DNA of 64,000 nucleotides. Origin: an uncultured Lentisphaerota bacterium. Lineage in GTDB: Bacteria; Verrucomicrobiota; Lentisphaeria; Oligosphaerales; CAITYL01. Position numbers and translations under genes: made by a program. This document shows positions 13,019 through 23,665 of this stretch, one piece after another (positions within the stretch are counted from its first letter, which is position 1; each line of letters begins with the position of its first letter). Where the stretch lies: NCBI GenBank assembly GCA_903921725.1, contig CAIXRA010000037.1:33322-97321 (forward strand), given 5' to 3'. The notes beneath the pieces are model-generated. The model did not search any database, had not been told where the DNA came from, and saw nothing but the letters and a program-made list of their open reading frames with translations.

Positions 13019-14395
13019 TCAGGGGGATACCGCCTTCTTCACGGCGGAGGCGGGGGGCGCGCTATCGCGCACAAGGCGGACGAAGTTGTTGATGCGGATG
13101 ACGTCGCCCTGCGGGCCGTGGCCGTGCGGGAATTGCGAGGCGTCGCCGACCTTGGGATCGCTGCGCTGCGCGCCGGCGCCGTGGACGTCGCAGTAATGGT
13201 AGCTGGCTGAGCTGGGGCTTTGGCGAACCGAATTAGGCCCGCCTGATGGCGGACCGCCACGTTGAGCAGAGCCACCGCGGCCGGGACCAACACCCATTCC
13301 GGGCATTCCGGTCGGCCAGCCGGCGGCGCGGCCGAAAGCGACATACGCCGCATTGCCCCCCGCGAGGAGCGACGCATGCGTGGTACCGCTCCAGTAATAC
13401 GCATAATCCGGCTTTTTGATCTCGTTGGCGATCGGGGTGCAGGTGAACAGCGGGTCGATGGCGGGCGACTGGCTGGTGTCCGGCGAACGCGTGTAGTCGA
13501 CGAGGCTCTGCAGCTCCTTCACGCTGGGCAGGCGCCAATCGTTGCGGCCGAGGTACTTGTCCTTGTTTTTCTGCTGCACCCACGCCAGCGCCTCCTCCCA
13601 GTTCATCCCCTTGCCGCTGTCGCCCTTCGTCCACATCAGGCCGGTGGCGCGGTCGGTGATGGTGCCGTCGCCGTTGTCCTTGAAGTCGTTCTGGCCGTAC
13701 TTCGGGTTGCCGCGGACGCATTGCACAAAAAACGTCTTTTCCATGTTGCCGCTCGGCATTTGCAGGTCATAGCCCTTGATCCGGCCGTCGGCGAAATTGA
13801 CGCCGAAAAGCTTGTTGAATCCTTGGTACGACTTGCCGACGAACTTGGTGCTCGATGCATCCTGCGAATCAATCAAACGCTCACCGTTGGCCGTGTTGCC
13901 GTAGGCGAACTTGAAAAATCTCGTGTCAATGAACGGCTTCATTTTACTGGCATCCGTGCTGGGGCCGCTGGGATCAGAACCGCTGAACATGATCAGCGAA
14001 TAGAGCTCCTTGATCGTCGGCAGCCGCCAGTCGTCGAAACCGCCGAACGTGGCGGCGTTGAGCTTTGCGGGCAGCGCCTGCGCCTGGGCCAGCGTCAGCT
14101 TGTCCTTCCTCGTGATTTCGCCGTCGCCGTTGGTGTCGGGGCTGCGCTGCCAGGTCAGGCCGGTGACGTTGTCGCACACGGTCAGGCCGTCGGTACCCAA
14201 GGTGTAGCTCGGGGCGTGCCCGGCAATCTGCGCGTCCTGGCCGTAAAACGGCTGCCCCGGCTTCGGCGGCTCGATCTCACGGTGGTTGTCGTAGCACTTT
14301 GTTTGACCGGTACCGACGATGGGGTAACTCAACGGTGCGTCGGCGGCAAACGCCGACCCGGCGAGCAGGGTTGCGATGATCAATATCCGGTTCAT
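13019..14395 (-). CDS. Exported DUF1566 (Lcl_C) protein with two domain copies
   Basis: Two copies of DWRLPTIKELYSLI / DWRLPSVKELQSLVDYTRS; VTGLTWQRSPDTNGDGEI and ATGLMWTKGDSGKGM. Confidence 0.82.
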   Translation of the reverse strand: MNRILIIATLLAGSAFAADAPLSYPIVGTGQTKCYDNHREIEPPKPGQPFYGQDAQIAGHAPSYTLGTDGLTVCDNVTGLTWQRSPDTNGDGEITRKDKLTLAQAQALPAKLNAATFGGFDDWRLPTIKELYSLIMFSGSDPSGPSTDASKMKPFIDTRFFKFAYGNTANGERLIDSQDASSTKFVGKSYQGFNKLFGVNFADGRIKGYDLQMPSGNMEKTFFVQCVRGNPKYGQNDFKDNGDGTITDRATGLMWTKGDSGKGMNWEEALAWVQQKNKDKYLGRNDWRLPSVKELQSLVDYTRSPDTSQSPAIDPLFTCTPIANEIKKPDYAYYWSGTTHASLLAGGNAAYVAFGRAAGWPTGMPGMGVGPGRGGSAQRGGPPSGGPNSVRQSPSSASYHYCDVHGAGAQRSDPKVGDASQFPHGHGPQGDVIRINNFVRLVRDSAPPASAVKKAVSP

Positions 14396-15840
14396 GGAGC
14401 GGTTCCTTCTTGTTTTGTGGTTGCAGATGGTTTGGCGCCGGGGCGGCCGCCGGCCCTTCCCCCGGGTCTGCCTGAGCCAGCCCCAGCCCCGGGCGAGGGA
14501 CGGGTGCGGACGGCCGGCAGTTCTTTCTTCACTCCGGCCAGCGTGGCTTCAAGCCGGCGGGCGACATCGGTGGAACGGACGTACAGATCGGTGGTTTCGC
14601 GGGGATCGTCGGCAAGTTGGTAGAGCGACCGCTTGCCGTCGCTGGTTTCAATGAGCTTCCAGGTGCCGTCGAAGATGGCGAAATCGTTGCCGGAGCTGCC
14701 GACGATGATGAAGGGGCTGCGATCCTGCACCCGGCCGCCGCGCAGGGCGTCCCACTGGCTTTTCCCGTCGAGTTTCGCGGCGTCTTTCACCGGCACGCCG
14801 GCGGCGGTGCCCAGCGTGGGGTAAATATCCTGTGCCGCAATGGGTTGCTGACTGGCGGCGCCCTCCTTGAGCCGGCCAGGCCAGCGCAGCAGGCACGGCG
14901 TGTGGATTCCACCCTCGAAGATTGTGTCCTTGCCGCCGCGCAATGGCGCGTTGCTTCCGCATTGGCCGGCGCCGTTGTCGGAGAAAAATAGGACGATCGT
15001 GTTTTCGCGCAGCCCCTGTTTATCCAGCGCGTCGAGGATGCGGCCCACCGACGTGTCCAGTGCATCGACAACGGCCGCATAGGTCGCCTGCTGGCCGGAG
15101 AGGTTCTTGTATTTGGCAAGGTATTCATCCGGTGCGCTCAGCGGGAAGTGCGGCGCATTGAAGGCCACCTCCAGGAAAAATGGATGTTTCGCGTCGCGCT
15201 TCTCGATCGTCCGGATCGCCTCATCGGCGAACAGCGTGGTGGAATAGCCCTGTTCCTCGACGGGCTTGCCGTCGCGCTGCCAGTCCAGGGCGCCCCCGCG
15301 CAGTCCCGTATGCTTGAAGTAGTCCAGCTCCGCGCCCAGAAAACCGTAGAAATGGTCGAACCCGTTCTGCATCGGCGGGCTTTGGGCGCCGAGGTGCCAC
15401 TTGCCGACAAGGGAGGTCTGGTACCCGGCGGCCTGAAACGTCCCGGGGAAGGTGGACAACCCTTCCGGAAGCGACTGGCGCGGCCCCATCACGTTTGCGA
15501 TGCCAAACCGGCGCGGCATCTGCCCCGTGATAAGCGCGGCGCGCGTCGGGCTGCACACCGGGTGAACGTAGAACCGCTTGAGTTCCAGGCTTTCCTTGGC
15601 GAGGCGGTCGAGTCTCGGCGTGTGCAGGGTTCCGCCGTGGAAGCCGACGTCACCCCAGCCGAGGTCGTCCACGACCAGGACGAGGATGTTCGGCGGCGTG
15701 CCGCTTTTGGCCGCCGGGGGGATGGCGGCCGCGTCTGGTGCGCCGTGCGCCAGGGAGACGGCGGAAAGCCCGGCCAGAGCGCCGGCCGCCGTGAGAATCC
15801 GGCGGCGTGCCATGGGTTGTTTTGCCGTGTCACTTTTCAT
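14392..15840 (-). CDS. Type I sulfatase with Tat-like N-terminus
   Basis: PNILVLVVDDLGWGDVGFHGG; formylglycine motif CSPTR in YVHPVCSPTRAALITGQMPRR; MARRRILTAAGALAGLSAV signal; ATGA overlap with the DUF1566 gene. Confidence 0.93.
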   Translation of the reverse strand: MKSDTAKQPMARRRILTAAGALAGLSAVSLAHGAPDAAAIPPAAKSGTPPNILVLVVDDLGWGDVGFHGGTLHTPRLDRLAKESLELKRFYVHPVCSPTRAALITGQMPRRFGIANVMGPRQSLPEGLSTFPGTFQAAGYQTSLVGKWHLGAQSPPMQNGFDHFYGFLGAELDYFKHTGLRGGALDWQRDGKPVEEQGYSTTLFADEAIRTIEKRDAKHPFFLEVAFNAPHFPLSAPDEYLAKYKNLSGQQATYAAVVDALDTSVGRILDALDKQGLRENTIVLFFSDNGAGQCGSNAPLRGGKDTIFEGGIHTPCLLRWPGRLKEGAASQQPIAAQDIYPTLGTAAGVPVKDAAKLDGKSQWDALRGGRVQDRSPFIIVGSSGNDFAIFDGTWKLIETSDGKRSLYQLADDPRETTDLYVRSTDVARRLEATLAGVKKELPAVRTRPSPGAGAGSGRPGGRAGGRPGAKPSATTKQEGTAP

Positions 15841-15869
15841 GCGTTCCCCCGACCGTTCATGGTGAAAAA

Positions 15870-16091
15870 TCAGCCCCACGCGACCAGCACGGGCACCCGC
15901 TTGTCGGGTGTGACGGCAATGGCCTGTTTCGGACAATAGATGCGGCAAAGATGGCAGATCTGGCAGTCGTCCGGATAGGTGATGGCCGCCTTACCGGTCG
16001 TGTCATTCATCCGCAGGACATCCATGGGGCATGCGGCCACACAGGCGCCGCAGCCGATGCATTTCCCGGTGTCGATGGATTGGATGGACAT
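15870..16091 (-). CDS. 2[4Fe-4S] ferredoxin (73 aa)
   Basis: CIGCGACVAACP and CQICHLCRIYCP cluster motifs; start at MSIQSIDTGK. Confidence 0.9.
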   Translation of the reverse strand: MSIQSIDTGKCIGCGACVAACPMDVLRMNDTTGKAAITYPDDCQICHLCRIYCPKQAIAVTPDKRVPVLVAWG

Positions 16092-16104
16092 GGCGCCGCC
16101 TCCT

Positions 16105-17544
16105 TTACGATTTTTTCGCCGAGATGAATTCCAGCTCGCCGGGGAAGCGGCCGCGATAGCGCTGTTCGTAGGGAATGCTCGCGCTGGGCTTCCAGTCGGC
16201 CGGGATCGCCTGCTTGACCGCCTGGGGTGCCGGAGCAGTTCCGCCTCCACGCACGAGGCGGACGAAATTGTAGATGCGGACAACGTCCCCCTGCGGGCCG
16301 CGGCCATGCGGAAACATCGCGGGGTCACCGGCCTTTGAATCACTGCGCTGCGCGCCCGCGCCGTGGACGTCGACCAGCTGGTAGCCGCCGGAGGCGCCCG
16401 TCTTTGCAGCGCCGCTCCCGCGCACAGTGCCCAACCCCATCGCGCCCGGCGGTCCGCCGACCCGCGGCAGCATCCAACCCGTCGCACGGCCGAAGGCGAC
16501 GTAGACGGCGGCGGTGCCCTGCCGGCTGGGAGGGCCGTCAAGGTGCGTGGTGCTGCTCCAGAAGAACGGATACTCGCCGTCGTCGAGCTTGGAGACAAGG
16601 AAGAGCGGCGAGATTGCCGGCGACTGTGTGGCGGCGGGCGCGCGGCTGTAGTCGACGATGCTCTGAAGTTCCTTGGCGTTGGGCAGCCGCCAGTCGCCGT
16701 GCCCCATATATTTTTCCGCGTTTTTGGCCTGGACCCACGCCAGCGCCTGCTGCCAGTCCAACCCCTTGCCGCTGTCCGCCTTGGACCAGGTGAGGCCGGT
16801 GGCATGGTCGGTGATGGTGCCGTCGCCGTTGTCCTTGAACTCATTCTGCCCGTACTTCGGGTTGCCGCGGACGTAGCGGGAGTACATCATGCCGCGTTTG
16901 CCGCTGGGGAATGCCTTGGGATATCCCTTGATGCGGCCGTCGGCGAAATTGACGCCGAAAACCGTGGTGTTGCCGCCCATCGTCTTGCCGATGTACTCCG
17001 TGGCGGACCAGTCCTGGCAGTCGATGATGCGGACACCCTGGGACTCGTCGCCGTAGACGAAGTCGAAGAACTTGGCGTCGATGTACGGCTTGGAGCTGGC
17101 CACCGTGCCGACGCAGCCGCCATTGAAGTTGATGAGCGAGTACAGCTCCTTGATCGTCGGCATCCGCCAGTCGGTGAAGCCGCCCGCCTTGCACTTGGCC
17201 GCGCCGGCCACCGCGTCATCCCATGTCATCTTTTGACCGCGGGCCTTCACCCAGGCCAGCCCCGTGTTGAGGTCGCTCACGGTGCCGTCGCCGTTGTCCT
17301 TGTACCGCGGCGCCGCCGCCGGATTCTGCGCATCCTGGCCGTAGAACGGCTGTCCCGGCTTCGGTAGTGAGATTTCGCCTTTGCTGTCGTAGCACTTGCT
17401 CTGCCCGGTGCCGATGATGGGATAGGTCGGCGCCCGCCCGGCGTCCGCGCCGGTTTTCCCGGCTGGCGTTGCCTCCGTGTAGGCTGCATGCGCGCAGAGT
17501 GCCATGCCCGCAATTGCAGCTCCGGCAAAAATCGTCCTGATCAT
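16105..17544 (-). CDS. Exported DUF1566 (Lcl_C) protein, paralog of 13019..14395
   Basis: DWRMPTIKELYSLINFNGG and DWRLPNAKELQSIVDYSRAP; same VDVHGAGAQRSD...GPQGDVVRIYNFVRLVR ending. Confidence 0.82.
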   Translation of the reverse strand: MIRTIFAGAAIAGMALCAHAAYTEATPAGKTGADAGRAPTYPIIGTGQSKCYDSKGEISLPKPGQPFYGQDAQNPAAAPRYKDNGDGTVSDLNTGLAWVKARGQKMTWDDAVAGAAKCKAGGFTDWRMPTIKELYSLINFNGGCVGTVASSKPYIDAKFFDFVYGDESQGVRIIDCQDWSATEYIGKTMGGNTTVFGVNFADGRIKGYPKAFPSGKRGMMYSRYVRGNPKYGQNEFKDNGDGTITDHATGLTWSKADSGKGLDWQQALAWVQAKNAEKYMGHGDWRLPNAKELQSIVDYSRAPAATQSPAISPLFLVSKLDDGEYPFFWSSTTHLDGPPSRQGTAAVYVAFGRATGWMLPRVGGPPGAMGLGTVRGSGAAKTGASGGYQLVDVHGAGAQRSDSKAGDPAMFPHGRGPQGDVVRIYNFVRLVRGGGTAPAPQAVKQAIPADWKPSASIPYEQRYRGRFPGELEFISAKKS

Positions 17545-17854: not shown

Positions 17855-19936
17855 TCACGCAGGCGGGCTCGCTGAATCATGCTTAATCCGCCTGAATTCC
17901 AAACCGGCGACGGCCACCGAGGCGAACCCCTTGCGCGTGTCCAGCTCCACAAGCCCCGTGACGCGCGGGTGCAGGAGACCGGCCGCCACGACCGACTCAA
18001 TCCGGCCTTCATCCGTGAACCGCAGCCGGACCTTCACGGTGCCCAGTCCCGGCCAGAATGCGCTGCAGAACTCGGCCAGCACGGCGACGGGCGCCGGCGC
18101 GACGAGGCCGATGGGGAGATGATCCTGCCACGCCAGCCCCGGCCGGCACGCCAGGGGCATGCGCGGAAGTGCCAGGAAGAGGCGGTTCAGCCAGCGGTCA
18201 TGCCCCTCGACGCGGTAGCAGTAGAACGTCCCCTCATGTTTGCCGAAATAGAGCCGTCCGCGGCGGGACTGGAAGAAGAGCGTCCCGTCCACCGCCATGC
18301 ACACCTTGAGCGCCAGTTCACTGACGGCGCGGCCGCCGCGCAGGATTTCATAGCGGAACTCCTCGTCCAGCACAAAGCTGATGATGGCGTCCAAACGCTT
18401 GTCTGTGTAGAACGGTTCGACGGTGTCCTTGACGACGGGCAGTTCGTTGGCGTGGTATTCGCCGCCGTTGACATAGGCGACGAAGCTGAACGGGAGCGTT
18501 GCGGCCCCCACCGCCGGGCCCGCCTGCGCCTGCACGTGGATGTGCGGCTGCGGCGAAAATCCGCTGTTGCCGCAGAGTCCGAGAACGGCGCCGCGTTCGA
18601 CCCATTCGCCGACCTTGACTTGAACGGATTTCTCCGCGAAGTGCGAGAGTTCGACGCAGAAGCCGCGCGGATCCTGAATGACGACCAGGTTGCCCCACTT
18701 GTTCGCCTCGTCGGTCGTTCCGGGCGGGCTGTCGGGGAGGCTGTCGACGATCTGGACGACATGGCCGCGGACCGGCGAGAGGACGGGCTTGCGGTAGCAG
18801 TGGTAGTCGTGGAGGCAGGCGCCGTCGCCCGTGTGGGTCTTGCCGTCCTCGCCGGTGATGACGAAGTCGTAGGCGTGGCGCCACTGCCCTTGGTGCGTCC
18901 ACGGGCCATCGAATCCCTGCCACACGGTCCAGCGGCCGGAGAACGGCAGGAACAGCATCCGCTCTTGGCCGGGATAGCGGCGGCGGTTGGCCAGATGGTT
19001 GGCCAGGCGCTCTTCCGGGGTGTGTCCCGGAGCGGCGGAGGTGAGCGGCCGCCGCGCATAGGCCAGCATGCCGAGCATGGCGAGGGTGACGAGGTTGAAC
19101 GGCAGCACGAACGCGGGGACGCCCAGCGCCGGCAGCACATGCAGCGAGGCGTCCAGCGTCACGGCGGTGAACACGGAGGCCAGCGCGGCAAGCAGGAAGC
19201 TGACGGGCGACGGCAGGAGGAAGACGCCGCCGACGGCCATCGCGGCGAAGAGGAAGTTGCAGTTCGCGGGGTCCGCAAACGCCGCGTCGGCCGAACCGCC
19301 GAGAACGGCGCGGGTGAGCGTACCGGCAAAGTAGCCGAGGGTCGCCAGAAGGAAAAGGATGCGCGAGTGCGCGAGCAGCACCAGCGCCAGCGCCACGCCG
19401 AGCGGCACCAGCGGCAGGAACAGGATGGCGCCGAACGACCGGCAGTAGCCGGCCAGCCAGAACGGAAGCCCGAAATCGCCCGCCAGCCACTCCGGCGTCT
19501 GGCGCACGGCCTCGTGGAGTCCGAAGTAGCCGTAGGACGCGGCGTAGGCCAGCCCCGCCACGATCACGAACGGCACGCTGAGCACGGGCAGCCGCAGATG
19601 CGACCAGAGCGGCCCGGCCAGCGCCGTGGTAACGGCAAAGGTGGCGGCTCCGGCGGCCAGCACGAGGAGGAGCCCCGGCAGGGACGGGGCGAGCAGGTGC
19701 CCCAGCGCCAGCCCGACCAGCAGCGGATTGTAGCTGTAGGCGCCCGACTCCAGGAACAGCCACTGCATGCGCAGCAGGACGGCCAGGCCGTAGGCGGCGA
19801 GCAGGCACAGCGCTCCGGCGGCCGCCATCGGCGGATCGGCCAGTGCCGCCACCAGCAGAAGGGCGCCGAGGACGGCGCTGGGGACGAAGAAGATCTCCCC
19901 GCAGCCGCGAAGGATGGGCAGGAGGCGTCCCGTCAT
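17855..19936 (-). CDS. Urea-transporter-like membrane domain fused to M23 metallopeptidase-like domain
   Basis: N-term SGAYSYNPLLVGLALG and UT-type motifs LPVLSVPFVI and GVPAFVLPFNLVTL; C-term SPVRGHVVQIVDS...GNLVVIQDPRGFCVELSHF...VERGAVLGLCGNSGFSPQPHIHVQ. Confidence 0.82.
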   Translation of the reverse strand: MTGRLLPILRGCGEIFFVPSAVLGALLLVAALADPPMAAAGALCLLAAYGLAVLLRMQWLFLESGAYSYNPLLVGLALGHLLAPSLPGLLLVLAAGAATFAVTTALAGPLWSHLRLPVLSVPFVIVAGLAYAASYGYFGLHEAVRQTPEWLAGDFGLPFWLAGYCRSFGAILFLPLVPLGVALALVLLAHSRILFLLATLGYFAGTLTRAVLGGSADAAFADPANCNFLFAAMAVGGVFLLPSPVSFLLAALASVFTAVTLDASLHVLPALGVPAFVLPFNLVTLAMLGMLAYARRPLTSAAPGHTPEERLANHLANRRRYPGQERMLFLPFSGRWTVWQGFDGPWTHQGQWRHAYDFVITGEDGKTHTGDGACLHDYHCYRKPVLSPVRGHVVQIVDSLPDSPPGTTDEANKWGNLVVIQDPRGFCVELSHFAEKSVQVKVGEWVERGAVLGLCGNSGFSPQPHIHVQAQAGPAVGAATLPFSFVAYVNGGEYHANELPVVKDTVEPFYTDKRLDAIISFVLDEEFRYEILRGGRAVSELALKVCMAVDGTLFFQSRRGRLYFGKHEGTFYCYRVEGHDRWLNRLFLALPRMPLACRPGLAWQDHLPIGLVAPAPVAVLAEFCSAFWPGLGTVKVRLRFTDEGRIESVVAAGLLHPRVTGLVELDTRKGFASVAVAGLEFRRIKHDSASPPA

Positions 19937-21297
19937 GCGCCGCGCCCTTCCGCTTTCAGGCGGGCGGGCAGCTTCTCCCGCCGCGTCATGTCCGTCAGGT
20001 CCTCGGCCTCGCGGATGAGGTCCACGGTGCCGTCCATGGCGACGAGCACGGAGGCGGGGCGGTACTCGATGAACTGCATGGACTGGGTATGGTTGTAGGC
20101 GCCGACGGGGGAGATGACCAGCCGGGTGCCGCGCAGCAGCGGCGGCAGCAGGATCCCCTCGTCGATGACATCAATGTTCATGCATAGCGGGCCATAGATG
20201 ACGCTGGGTTCGTTGACGCCGCCGACCTCACGGTCCAGCTCGATGTTGAACTTGTACCAGAAGGCGGTGAACAGCAGGTTCACGCCGGCGTCCGCCACAT
20301 AGGCGCGGGTGCCGTCGGGCAGGCGCTTCGTCGCGGTCACCGTGGAAATCAGCCAGCCGGCCTCGTCGACCAGCGCGCGGCCCGACTCCAGGATGAGTTT
20401 CGGGACATCGCCGGGGCGCAGGGCCGAAGAGAGGGCGCGGCCGACCTCCTCCGCGTACTCGTCGATGGACGGCAGGGAAACCTCCGGCGAGAGGTAGCTG
20501 CCCTTGAGGCGGCTGTGTGACGGGAAACCGCCGCCGATGTCGAGATATTCGATGGAGAAAGCGAACGACTTCTCCACTTCGTAGGCGAACTCCACCATCT
20601 TCTTGACCTGGCGCCCGTAGGCGGCGGCCTCCATGATGTAGGTGCCGATGTGGCAGTGCAGCCCCTTGAGCACGAGCCGGCCGCCGTTCTTCATGCGCTT
20701 GACGGCCTCCAGCGCCTGGCCGCTCTCCAGGTTGAAACCGAAGCGGGACCACTGCGGCTGGATGCCGGAATCGAGGTTCAGGCGGATGCCGACGTGGACG
20801 TGGCGCCGGAGCTTCTTGGCGATCGCCTCCAGATCGTACAGCTCGTCGAGGTTGTCGATGTTGATCATGGCCCCCTCGTGCGCCGCCTTCTCCAGCGCGG
20901 CGGGGGACTTGTGCGGGCCGTTGAAGATGATGCGGTTGCCGGGGACGCCCTGGGCCCGCGCCTTCTCGTACTCCATCGCCGACACCACCTCCGCCAGTGA
21001 GCCTTCTTGGTGCATGACGGCGCAGACGGCGGCCAGGTAGTTGGTCTTGTAGGACCAGCCGAACGCCACGTTGGGGTAGCGCGTGGAGAACGCCCCGTAC
21101 ATCCGGCGGTAGCGCTGGCGCAGCGTCCGCTCCGAGTAGACGTAAAGCGGGGAGCCGTGCTTAGAAACCAGCTCCTCCACCGGCACGCCGTCAATCTCGC
21201 TGCGCACCTTCCGGGAATAGGCCGGACTGCGCCCGTACTTGTTCATCAGCCCCGTGACGAGCTTGTTGATTACCGGCTTCTCATAGGGACGTTTCAT
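19933..21297 (-). CDS. Fold-III PLP-dependent decarboxylase (DapDC/Orn-DC-like)
   Basis: HGSPLYVYSERTLRQRYRRMYGAF, FGWSYKTNYLAAVC (PLP-lysine region), HCHIGTYI, YLDIGGGFPS and LESGRALVDEAG; ATGA overlap with the next gene. Confidence 0.87.
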   Translation of the reverse strand: MKRPYEKPVINKLVTGLMNKYGRSPAYSRKVRSEIDGVPVEELVSKHGSPLYVYSERTLRQRYRRMYGAFSTRYPNVAFGWSYKTNYLAAVCAVMHQEGSLAEVVSAMEYEKARAQGVPGNRIIFNGPHKSPAALEKAAHEGAMINIDNLDELYDLEAIAKKLRRHVHVGIRLNLDSGIQPQWSRFGFNLESGQALEAVKRMKNGGRLVLKGLHCHIGTYIMEAAAYGRQVKKMVEFAYEVEKSFAFSIEYLDIGGGFPSHSRLKGSYLSPEVSLPSIDEYAEEVGRALSSALRPGDVPKLILESGRALVDEAGWLISTVTATKRLPDGTRAYVADAGVNLLFTAFWYKFNIELDREVGGVNEPSVIYGPLCMNIDVIDEGILLPPLLRGTRLVISPVGAYNHTQSMQFIEYRPASVLVAMDGTVDLIREAEDLTDMTRREKLPARLKAEGRGA

Positions 21298-22334
21298 GGG
21301 GCTTCCCCGCGGGTTATGGCTTTCTGGAAAAGGGACATGTCGGTCACCAGTTCATAGGTGTAGCGCACGAACAGCTTGCCGGCCTCGTATTCCATCTCCT
21401 CCGGCACCGGCAGCCCGAAGCAGCGGCGGATCAGGCGCGACGGCAGGTTGATGCCGACGCCGGTGGCGAAGTACGACCACGCCGGGAAGCGCGGGTTGAT
21501 CTCGATCATGTACACGCGGTCGCCGCTGACGATGCATTCCAGCTCGAACGGGCCGCGCCACTTGAACTTGCCGATGAATTCTTCCGTCGCCCGGAGCATC
21601 GGCCCGTGCTTGACGGTCACGCCCGTCCAGATTTTGCCGAGGGCGGTGACGGATAATTTTTTAATGCCGACCTGCCCCAGGGAGTTCCCCTCGCCGTCGC
21701 CCAGCCCCACCACGTTCATCTCGTCGCCGGACACCACCTGCTGCACGATGACCGGGTAGCCCCACTCCGCCACCAGGTCATGGTAGTGCGAGATCGCCTC
21801 CTGCGTGGTGTGGCAGCGGTAGGCCTTGTAGAAGCTGCCCTTGACCATCACCGGCAGCCCGATGGCCTCGACCGCCTGGAGAAACTCGTCCATCCCGCTC
21901 ACCACCTTCGTGCGCGGCAGCGAAATGCCGATGCGGTCAGAAATCTCGATGAGCCGGTCCTTGCCCCGCAGCTTGAACTGCTCCATGTCCGGAAGGAAGG
22001 TGCGGATGCCATGGGCGGCCAGGTCGGCCGCATACTTGATATAGAGCGGCAGCTCGGCGTCGAGGTTGGGGATGACAATGTCCAGGCCGTGCGACTTCTT
22101 GATGTACAGCAGCCGTTCGAGGAACGCCTCGCCGCTGCCCGACGGATAGGGCATGATGAACGACTTGTCCACGACCCAGTCCATGAAGATGCCCGGTTCC
22201 ATGGCGTCGTAGGCCAGGCCGACAATCTCCGCGTTCAGGCCGCTGTCTTCCTTCAGGCTGCGGGCCACGCCGACGCCGGGGCCGGGGTTGTCCACCGCAT
22301 TGATGCCCGAAATGCCGATGAAAAGCTTGTCCAC
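21294..22334 (-). CDS. ATP-grasp ligase (carbamoyl-phosphate-synthase-like)
   Basis: IGLPVMVKGSFYKAYRCHT, GYPVIVQQVVSGDEMNVVGLGD and FELECIVSGDRVYMIEINPRFPAWSYFATGVGINLP; overlaps the decarboxylase start. Confidence 0.88.
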   Translation of the reverse strand: MDKLFIGISGINAVDNPGPGVGVARSLKEDSGLNAEIVGLAYDAMEPGIFMDWVVDKSFIMPYPSGSGEAFLERLLYIKKSHGLDIVIPNLDAELPLYIKYAADLAAHGIRTFLPDMEQFKLRGKDRLIEISDRIGISLPRTKVVSGMDEFLQAVEAIGLPVMVKGSFYKAYRCHTTQEAISHYHDLVAEWGYPVIVQQVVSGDEMNVVGLGDGEGNSLGQVGIKKLSVTALGKIWTGVTVKHGPMLRATEEFIGKFKWRGPFELECIVSGDRVYMIEINPRFPAWSYFATGVGINLPSRLIRRCFGLPVPEEMEYEAGKLFVRYTYELVTDMSLFQKAITRGEAP

Positions 22335-22393: not shown

Positions 22394-22431
22394 TTTGGAG
22401 TGCGGCAATAAGTGCATCCGTTTGCCGCTTT
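22394..22431. repeat. Left arm of a perfect 38-bp inverted repeat
   Basis: tttggagtgcggcaataagtgcatccgtttgccgcttt; exact reverse complement at 22534..22571. Confidence 0.97.
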
Positions 22432-22533
22432 CCAACTAAGGCGGAGCCACTATGGCAATACCTTATAGATTGCCGCCACAACTAAGTCAACAAAACCTAA
22501 AACACCAGAACACCAGCGCTCCGCACGAATGAA

Positions 22534-22571
22534 AAAGCGGCAAACGGATGCACTTATTGCCGCACTCCAAA
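22534..22571. repeat. Right arm of a perfect 38-bp inverted repeat (102-bp spacer)
   Basis: aaagcggcaaacggatgcacttattgccgcactccaaa. Confidence 0.97.
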
Positions 22572-22651: not shown

Positions 22652-22894
22652 TCACCCCGTCACCAGCCCGAAGCTTTTCAGGACGCTCACGAAGTCCGCC
22701 ACGTCGCGCTGTGCCTCCTCGCGCGTCACCTCATACGCCTCCGCCAGCCGCCGGGCGGTCTCCCCATCGTCGGCGCCGGCGCGGAACGCATTGAGGATGT
22801 ACAGGCCGGTCTCGCTGGTCTGGAAGCTGTCGCCGGTCAGCGGGTTGAAGATGAACCCCTCTTCGTTGATGGCCAGGTGGGAAAGTTTTTGCAT
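22652..22894 (-). CDS. PqqD-like protein (RiPP recognition element-type fold)
   Basis: 80 aa; INEEGFIFNPLTGDSFQTSETGLYILNAFRAGADDGETARRLAEAYEVTREEAQRDVADFVSVLKSFGLV matches the PqqD pattern. Confidence 0.8.
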   Translation of the reverse strand: MQKLSHLAINEEGFIFNPLTGDSFQTSETGLYILNAFRAGADDGETARRLAEAYEVTREEAQRDVADFVSVLKSFGLVTG

Positions 22895-22945: not shown

Positions 22946-23665
22946 TTACCGGCGACCCTTGCCGCCGCCACCCCCACCACCACCCCCACCACCGCCGCCG
23001 CCGCGCGGACCCGCCGCGGGCACGTCCGCCACCACGACCATTTTAAGCCCTTCCAGGGCCCGCGCGTTTCCCGGACTAAGCAACAGCACCTTCTGGAAGC
23101 AGGCATCGCCCCCCTTGGCGTCCCCGGCCTTCTTGAGAGAAAAACCCAGCCCCAGCAGCATTTCCGTGTCGGTTGGGTAGAGTGTCGTCATCTTGCGGTA
23201 GATTATGGTGGCCTTCCGGAAGTCGCGCGCCAAGTACGTCAACCAGGCCATCCGGGAATTGGCGGTGTAGTTGTCGGAATCGCGCGCCAGCACCGACTGC
23301 CCCGTCCGCAGCGCGTCCTCGTTCTTCCCCAGCGCGGTCTGGGCCGCCATCAACCCCAGCAGCGGCTCGACGGCCGATGACGCAAGCTGGGACGCCTTCT
23401 TGTAGCGGGTGATGCTGGCCTCATACTGCTTGTTGCAGTACTGGAGCCAGCCAAGGCGATACTGGACGATGTACTCGGCGTTCGCCGCCGTCCCGAGTTT
23501 TTCCAGCGGCTCGATCGCCTTGACGTAGTCCTTTCCCTGTTCGGCGTCATAGGACTCCTGCAGGGCCGTGCCCAGCACGGCGGAGGAAAGCTCCGCGCGA
23601 ACGGGAGCGGCAAAAACGGCCAGCAGTGCCGCGTGGACAAGAAGGAACACGGTAGTTTTTTTCAC
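22946..23665 (-). CDS. Exported TPR protein with poly-Gly C-terminal tail
   Basis: Signal peptide, TPR-like helices (LGTAANAEYIVQYRLGWLQYCNKQYEASITRY), C-term GPRG(14)KGRR. Confidence 0.8.
   Translation of the reverse strand: MKKTTVFLLVHAALLAVFAAPVRAELSSAVLGTALQESYDAEQGKDYVKAIEPLEKLGTAANAEYIVQYRLGWLQYCNKQYEASITRYKKASQLASSAVEPLLGLMAAQTALGKNEDALRTGQSVLARDSDNYTANSRMAWLTYLARDFRKATIIYRKMTTLYPTDTEMLLGLGFSLKKAGDAKGGDACFQKVLLLSPGNARALEGLKMVVVADVPAAGPRGGGGGGGGGGGGGGKGRR

Follow-up and report, generated by a model that had tools for sequence, protein, structure and literature searches.

A urea-transporter-type channel domain fused to an M23 metallopeptidase domain in a conserved operon

Introduction

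What is the role of a protein in which a urea-transporter (UT) channel is joined to an M23 metallopeptidase domain? The question is raised by a gene in a 64,000-nucleotide stretch of DNA from an uncultured Lentisphaerota bacterium, hereafter called the window. The initial annotation, made from the sequence of the window, took such a fusion to mean that the protein has another role than urea uptake. We found no description of the UT-M23 fusion or its operon in the open-access literature, and the architecture may already be recorded in domain databases. The individual domains belong to known kinds, and it is the combination, the operon, and the separation from urease that set the protein apart. 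The prospect that the entire system is new is a real one.

Results

Three domains in one reading frame

The UT-M23 gene is one unbroken frame of 693 codons in the list of open reading frames of the window, and overlaps the decarboxylase gene by 4 nt (ATGA). The gene and its domains are as follows.

17855–19936, minus strand: UT-M23 fusion gene, 693 aa, three domains, with the ATG at 19936 and the stop at 17855.
18977–19936, minus strand: UT channel domain, residues 1–320; Pfam UT (PF03253) at residues 8–290, E=1.5e-49; Foldseek match to 3k3g, TM-score 0.81 by target length.
18482–18955, minus strand: M23 metallopeptidase domain, residues 328–485; Pfam Peptidase_M23 (PF01551) at residues 383–471, E=1.1e-9; Foldseek matches to M23 structures.
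17858–18481, minus strand: C-terminal beta-rich domain, residues 486–693; AlphaFold2 pLDDT 94; weak half-barrel (LolA-like) similarity.

The Pfam scores of the UT and M23 domains are both far past the chance level. The AlphaFold2 model of the full protein, calculated with an alignment of 64 homologues, has a mean pLDDT of 91.4 and a pTM of 0.86, and its UT domain contains ten transmembrane helices, two pore half-helices, and a conserved TPEE tail helix. In the Foldseek search of this model against the PDB, the solved urea transporters rank first (3k3g, E=1.1e-12), and the next matches are M23 structures, such as DipM, Csd1/2, LasA, EnpA, and others (E about 3e-6 to 1e-4). Thus, the single frame, the two Pfam matches, and the two predicted folds bear out the fusion claimed by the initial annotation: the membrane half has the UT fold, and the C-terminal half includes the M23 fold. 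A genome search detected exactly one UT copy in the window's genome.

The initial annotation had overlooked the operon and the third domain (about 486–693). This domain matches no Pfam family, and is modelled alone with a pLDDT of 94.1. Its Foldseek matches to solved folds are weak, the best being LolA (E=3e-3, TM about 0.3), and we therefore leave it unnamed.

On the opposite strand, a 739-codon frame (17879–20098, plus strand) runs antisense to the UT-M23 gene and the end of the decarboxylase gene, and looks like a GC-rich shadow ORF. Downstream of the UT-M23 gene, two related genes with duplicated Lcl_C domains (13019–14395 and 16105–17544) flank a sulfatase gene (14392–15948). They show no sign of belonging to the UT-M23 system, and an Lcl-like protein occurs near a few homologues (e.g., L041). 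Between the sulfatase gene and the second Lcl gene lies a small ferredoxin-like sequence (CIGCGACVAACPMDVL...CQICHLCRIYCPKQA; about 15870–16100, minus strand), which is read as the tail of a longer open frame.

Distribution of the fusion

Fused relatives of full or near-full length were collected from 80 loci in unrelated genomes. According to the record titles, many of which belong to MAGs, these loci are from Verrucomicrobia, Planctomycetota, Ignavibacteria, Calditrichota, Gemmatimonadota, Aquificota, deltaproteobacterial groups, Campylobacterales, cyanobacteria, Shewanella, Psychromonas, Thiomargarita, and others. Since this set was retrieved by the M23-domain motif CGNSG[YFR]SP[EQY], it is unusable for frequency. 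We therefore surveyed an independent sample, 399 genomes of the Pseudomonadota, to which Shewanella belongs, for the UT family and obtained matches in 56 genomes, 54 of which were also searched with the M23 half. In 34 of these 54 genomes, the UT frame continues directly into M23, including one fusion split over two contigs and one gene truncated by its contig. In the window's phylum (289 genomes searched), the fusion is present in all six UT-bearing genomes. A false fusion created by a frameshift or an assembly error is ruled out for practical purposes, as the same architecture recurs in dozens of independent genomes from many phyla.

Some Pseudomonadota genomes (G316, G383, and G399) have a second, shorter UT-family frame on the contig of the UT-M23 gene, at a distance of a few kb.

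The peptidase site and the channel pore

The M23 ligand and catalytic residues, H348, D357, H432, H465, and H467, are identical in all 64 homologues, and the middle histidine, H432, occupies the position that we take to be catalytic from the established knowledge of M23 enzymes. The retrieval motif spans residues 455–463 only, and therefore did not directly impose H348, D357, H432, or the HxH histidines. These residues match the HxnD (H348/D357), catalytic His (H432), and HxH (H465/H467) positions of M23 enzymes (PMC9662197), and the domain thus belongs to the M23 family by its fold, its ligands, and its catalytic histidine. A degenerate M23 scaffold is disfavoured by the invariance of the active site in the 64 homologues.

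In the UT half, F17, F173, N70, N227, P122, F123, P274, and P279 are invariant, and the duplicated LPxLxxPF-type motif and the pore Phe and Asn residues are retained in the 64 sequences, in agreement with the duplicated UT motifs that had been noticed. The polar residues are changed. The canonical pore-mouth Gln (GQVMF in dvUT; GQVFF, SQVMF, and SQIFL in the controls) is replaced by Glu in the window protein and in 44 of the 64 homologues. Its symmetry mate, which is E or Q in the canonical UTs, is mostly Ala, Ser, Leu, or Thr in the fusion homologues, and the change at the symmetry-related positions is asymmetric. Of the LT(A/W)PF-type threonines, the first is replaced by Ser in 59 of the 64 homologues, and the second is Thr in 44 and Val in the window protein. 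These Gln, Glu/Gln, and Thr positions line the pore in the UT structures. Therefore, the domain is a UT by its PF03253 match and fold, and its polar lining is altered: the Phe, Asn, and Pro elements of the pore are kept, while the canonical polar set (Gln, Glu/Gln, Thr, Thr) is not matched in UT-M23. The score against the urea_trans_yut equivalog (NCBIfam) is 93.6 bits, under the cut-off of 274.6. We speculate that an amine would be well accommodated by the Glu at one of the pore mouths. The UT pore constriction is 2–3 Å wide (PMC10541013), and therefore a product that passes through it would have to be very small.

Does UT-M23 still conduct urea, or urea and amides, with the M23 domain as a regulatory or scaffolding module, urea being an osmolyte or by-product and not a substrate of urease? 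The invariant pore Phe, Asn, and PF elements are consistent with this possibility, and degenerate M23 folds work as protein–protein modules (PMC9662197). Against it, the M23 catalytic residues are invariant, unlike those of degenerate scaffolds, the pore-mouth Gln/Glu positions are systematically changed, no ureohydrolase is present among the conserved operon genes, and urease is mostly absent, as described below. We consider this explanation somewhat unlikely.

Separation from urease

The initial annotation had noted the absence of a urease gene from the window, and this holds for the whole genome, in which no urease alpha subunit was detected. Urease is also missing from 24 of 31 UT-M23 genomes. 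Among the Pseudomonadota, urease is present in 4 of the 34 fusion genomes versus 18 of the 20 genomes with a stand-alone UT (Fisher p=1.1e-8, uncorrected for phylogeny), a large contrast, although some of the genomes are incomplete MAGs. The comparison covers the 54 genomes searched with the M23 half, and counting the other two, which have weak or partial UT matches (G388 and G491), as stand-alone gives p=2.3e-8. Urea uptake feeding urease is thus rejected for the window's genome and disfavoured for the family. The two folds, the intact zinc ligands, and the strong anti-association of the fused form with urease support the original suggestion of a function other than urea uptake.

The predicted side of the M23 domain

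The loops on the side of the UT termini contain 6.3 Lys/Arg residues on average, versus 1.9 on the opposite side (64 homologues). The termini side is richer in Lys/Arg in 63 of the 64 homologues, with one tie, and when both termini are excluded, it keeps the excess in 50 and has the lower count in 2. The three stand-alone bacterial UTs that served as controls have a charge bias of the same sign. The segment between the last UT helix, which ends at residue 294, and the M23 domain, which starts at about 328, is hydrophilic and holds a TPEE-type stretch that is also present in the C-terminal tail of dvUT. Both UT termini are predicted to be cytoplasmic, and therefore the M23 domain is predicted, from the charge bias and the family topology, to reside in the cytosol. 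The domain had been described as a cell-wall-type peptidase; the M23 fold stands, while the predicted cytoplasmic location makes cell-wall hydrolysis unlikely.

Alternatively, the M23 domain may face the periplasm, through an inverted UT or an unusual passage of the C-terminal part, and trim peptidoglycan, while the operon supplies an amine that modifies the wall or envelope. Peptidoglycan is the substrate of the known active M23 enzymes (PMC9662197), and L008, a close stand-alone relative in the same M23 subfamily, has a signal-peptide-like N terminus. L008 and the M23 enzymes have the appearance of secreted proteins, and the C-terminal domain shows a weak similarity to periplasmic half-barrels (LolA/RseB-like), all of which would fit a periplasmic M23 domain, as would the periplasmic-looking TPR protein and the outer-membrane barrel of the operon. 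However, the positive-inside bias is nearly uniform among the homologues and has the same sign in the canonical UTs, the hydrophilic linker leaves no space for an extra transmembrane helix, and the upstream partners are cytosolic enzymes. We thus regard the periplasmic arrangement as unlikely, and hereafter place the M23 domain provisionally in the cytosol.

A conserved operon

In the window, the gene order is TPR, PqqD-like, ATP-grasp, PLP decarboxylase, and UT-M23, with 4-nt overlaps between the last three genes.

19933–21297, minus strand: PLP decarboxylase of the alanine-racemase fold, FigC/FslC-like, with the active-site motif GPLCMNID and the uncharged specificity helix T344/W347/Y348.
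21294–22334, minus strand: ATP-grasp ligase of the CarB-like PRK12767 group, with invariant candidate site residues.
22394–22571, no strand: MITE-like insertion with long terminal inverted repeats, which separates the PqqD-like gene from the ATP-grasp gene and is not part of the system.
22652–22894, minus strand: PqqD-like 80-aa protein of an RRE-type peptide-binding family (Pfam PqqD 5e-11, over the cut-off).
22946–23665, minus strand: TPR protein with a signal-peptide-like N terminus, a conserved operon partner.

Across many phyla, the conserved operon consists of PqqD-like, ATP-grasp, FigC/FslC-like PLP decarboxylase, UT-M23, outer-membrane barrel, and TPR. UT-M23 was counted at 83 loci, the decarboxylase at 61, the ATP-grasp ligase at 54, the TPR protein at 50, the outer-membrane-barrel-like protein (about 290 aa) at 39, and the PqqD-like protein at 33 when ORFs were called greedily; a targeted search raised this last count to about 46 loci with the gene directly upstream of the ATP-grasp gene. 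All of these counts are lower bounds because the contigs are often short. The mean column identity is 63–64% for the decarboxylase and the ATP-grasp ligase versus 48% for UT-M23. In the window's phylum, this first type of ATP-grasp ligase is present in all six UT-M23 genomes versus 1 of the 283 others. It was found in none of eight genomes with a stand-alone UT.

A different set accompanies UT-M23 in Shewanella, Psychromonas, and three other records: a TPR protein, an OKR_DC_1 decarboxylase, which is unrelated to the FigC-like enzyme, a PRK06524-type ATP-grasp ligase, a C45/AAT Ntn hydrolase, and another protein, possibly a barrel. These genes lie downstream of UT-M23 (L073, L078, L081, L082, L086, L105, L065, and L068), and six genomes with this set lack the first-type ATP-grasp ligase. 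A few loci (e.g., L067, L075, and L088) have neither set. Since two distinct decarboxylase/ATP-grasp pairs accompany the same UT-M23, the chemistry of ligation and decarboxylation, rather than the particular enzymes, is suggested to be what counts for UT-M23.

A search of the window's genome for the operon-type outer-membrane barrel, run without a positive control, gave no match, and sequence comparisons of the barrel with the PDB and Pfam gave nothing convincing. Within 1.5 kb upstream of the ATP-grasp gene, the PqqD-like gene is the sole conserved small ORF, and no precursor peptide was found there. The possibility that the PqqD-like protein itself acts as a carrier to which an amino acid is attached was rejected, as its C termini vary.

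Some features of these loci deserve a record. In three verrucomicrobial loci (L031, L032, and L033), the TPR and outer-membrane-barrel parts form one protein, like the TPR-barrel export porins. The TPR protein of the window ends in a long poly-glycine tail (22946–22990), and glycine-rich tails also occur in some verrucomicrobial relatives (L038). The MITE-like element is about 178 bp long, with 54-nt terminal inverted repeats that are 87% complementary, and roughly 30 full or partial copies (71–100% identity) are scattered over the genome.

The operon enzymes

The nearest solved relative of the decarboxylase is the N-citrylornithine decarboxylase FigC/FslC (7kh2, 1.3e-58). In FigC, Met355 replaces the acidic residue that follows the catalytic Cys in the ornithine, arginine, and diaminopimelate decarboxylases, and the specificity helix is uncharged (T327, T330, and Y331) (PMC7857480). 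As read off the alignment, the operon family has the corresponding Met after the catalytic Cys (Met373, 31/31) and an uncharged specificity helix (T344, 30/31; W347, 31/31; Y348, 30/31). These residues argue for a conjugated or uncharged substrate, rather than a free basic amino acid. Two candidate assignments were rejected: a diaminopimelate decarboxylase, as the LysA equivalog score is 225.9 bits versus the cut-off of 297.9 and the enzyme has Met373 and T344/W347/Y348 with no acidic residue or Arg, and a basic-amino-acid decarboxylase, as the recognition motifs for free basic amino acids are absent. In the ATP-grasp ligase, the candidate nucleotide- and Mg-site residues K125, K165, E205, E264, E278, N280, and R282 are kept in 23 of 23 sequences.

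Discussion

How might these components work together? Because the carriers are mostly free of urease and the partners are amide-making and decarboxylating enzymes, UT-M23 is probably a release-and-transport part, rather than a urea importer. We tentatively propose, with somewhat less than even confidence, that it forms the last, membrane-bound part of a conserved small-molecule pathway. The secreted look of L008 and the M23 enzymes, the half-barrel likeness of the C-terminal domain, the failure to find a precursor peptide near the operon or a barrel in the window's genome, and the narrow UT pore weigh against this model.

Conjugate formation: In the cytoplasm, the ATP-grasp ligase would form an amide bond between an amino acid and an acceptor, which may be a peptide held by the PqqD-like protein. 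The FigC-like decarboxylase would then remove a carboxylate from this conjugate.

Release and transport: The M23 domain, hanging at the cytosolic end of the UT channel, would hydrolyze the amide or peptide bond of the conjugate. The product, which we infer to be a small polar neutral molecule or an amine, would reach the periplasm by way of the UT pore, and may move onward via the outer-membrane barrel/TPR pair.

UT proteins are passive channels, open to flow either way. Therefore, UT-M23 could instead take up a small amide or amine, to be processed by the M23, ATP-grasp, and decarboxylase set, with the outer-membrane barrel as an uptake porin. An ATP-consuming ligase and a decarboxylase are better suited to synthesis than to catabolism, and we consider such an import route very unlikely. 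In the export direction, the broader reading, in which a biosynthesis-and-transport system spans many phyla and a cytosolic M23 domain, joined to a urea-type channel, frees the transported molecule at the pore mouth, is possible and still doubtful.

Many UT-domain genes are UT-M23 fusions in urease-free genomes, and the label “urea transporter” would thus lead to wrong predictions of nitrogen metabolism. If the proposed model is true, the UT fold is also widely used to channel the product of a conserved pathway, as a second role, and an M23 peptidase is at work in the cytoplasm. Being compact and present in cultivated bacteria (e.g., Psychromonas aquimarina and a Leptolyngbya), the operon is directly testable.

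Comparison with known systems

The operon decarboxylase shares the Met next to the catalytic Cys and the uncharged specificity helix with the FigC/FslC group, which, together with SbnH, AcsE, MccE, and BtrK, represents alanine-racemase-fold decarboxylases unrelated to polyamines (PMC7857480). It differs in that FigC H357 is replaced by Ile and FigC T330 by an invariant Trp, and the partner enzyme is an ATP-grasp ligase, in contrast to the NIS synthetase of FigC/FslC.

The proposed scheme may resemble the carrier logic of BtrJ/BtrK in butirosin biosynthesis and of LysX/LysW, in which ATP-grasp ligation is followed by modification and hydrolytic release. Unlike in these systems, no carrier with a conserved C terminus was found at the UT-M23 loci, where the PqqD-like C termini are variable.

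The channel domain shares the fold, the internal duplication, the pore Phe residues, and the TPE-type tail with the UT urea channels (dvUT, 3K3F/3K3G; UT-A/UT-B; PF03253). In contrast to them, UT-M23 has additional M23 and third domains, is not tied to urease, and has Glu in place of the pore-mouth Gln and Ala/Ser in place of Glu/Gln.

Finally, the peptidase domain has the fold, the HxnD and HxH ligands, and the catalytic His in common with the M23 zinc metallopeptidases LytM, LasA, Csd/Pgp3, and MepM. The His-to-Asp distance is 9 residues in UT-M23, as compared to 4 in the known M23 enzymes, and unlike these enzymes, the M23 domain of UT-M23 is joined to a channel and is predicted to be cytosolic.
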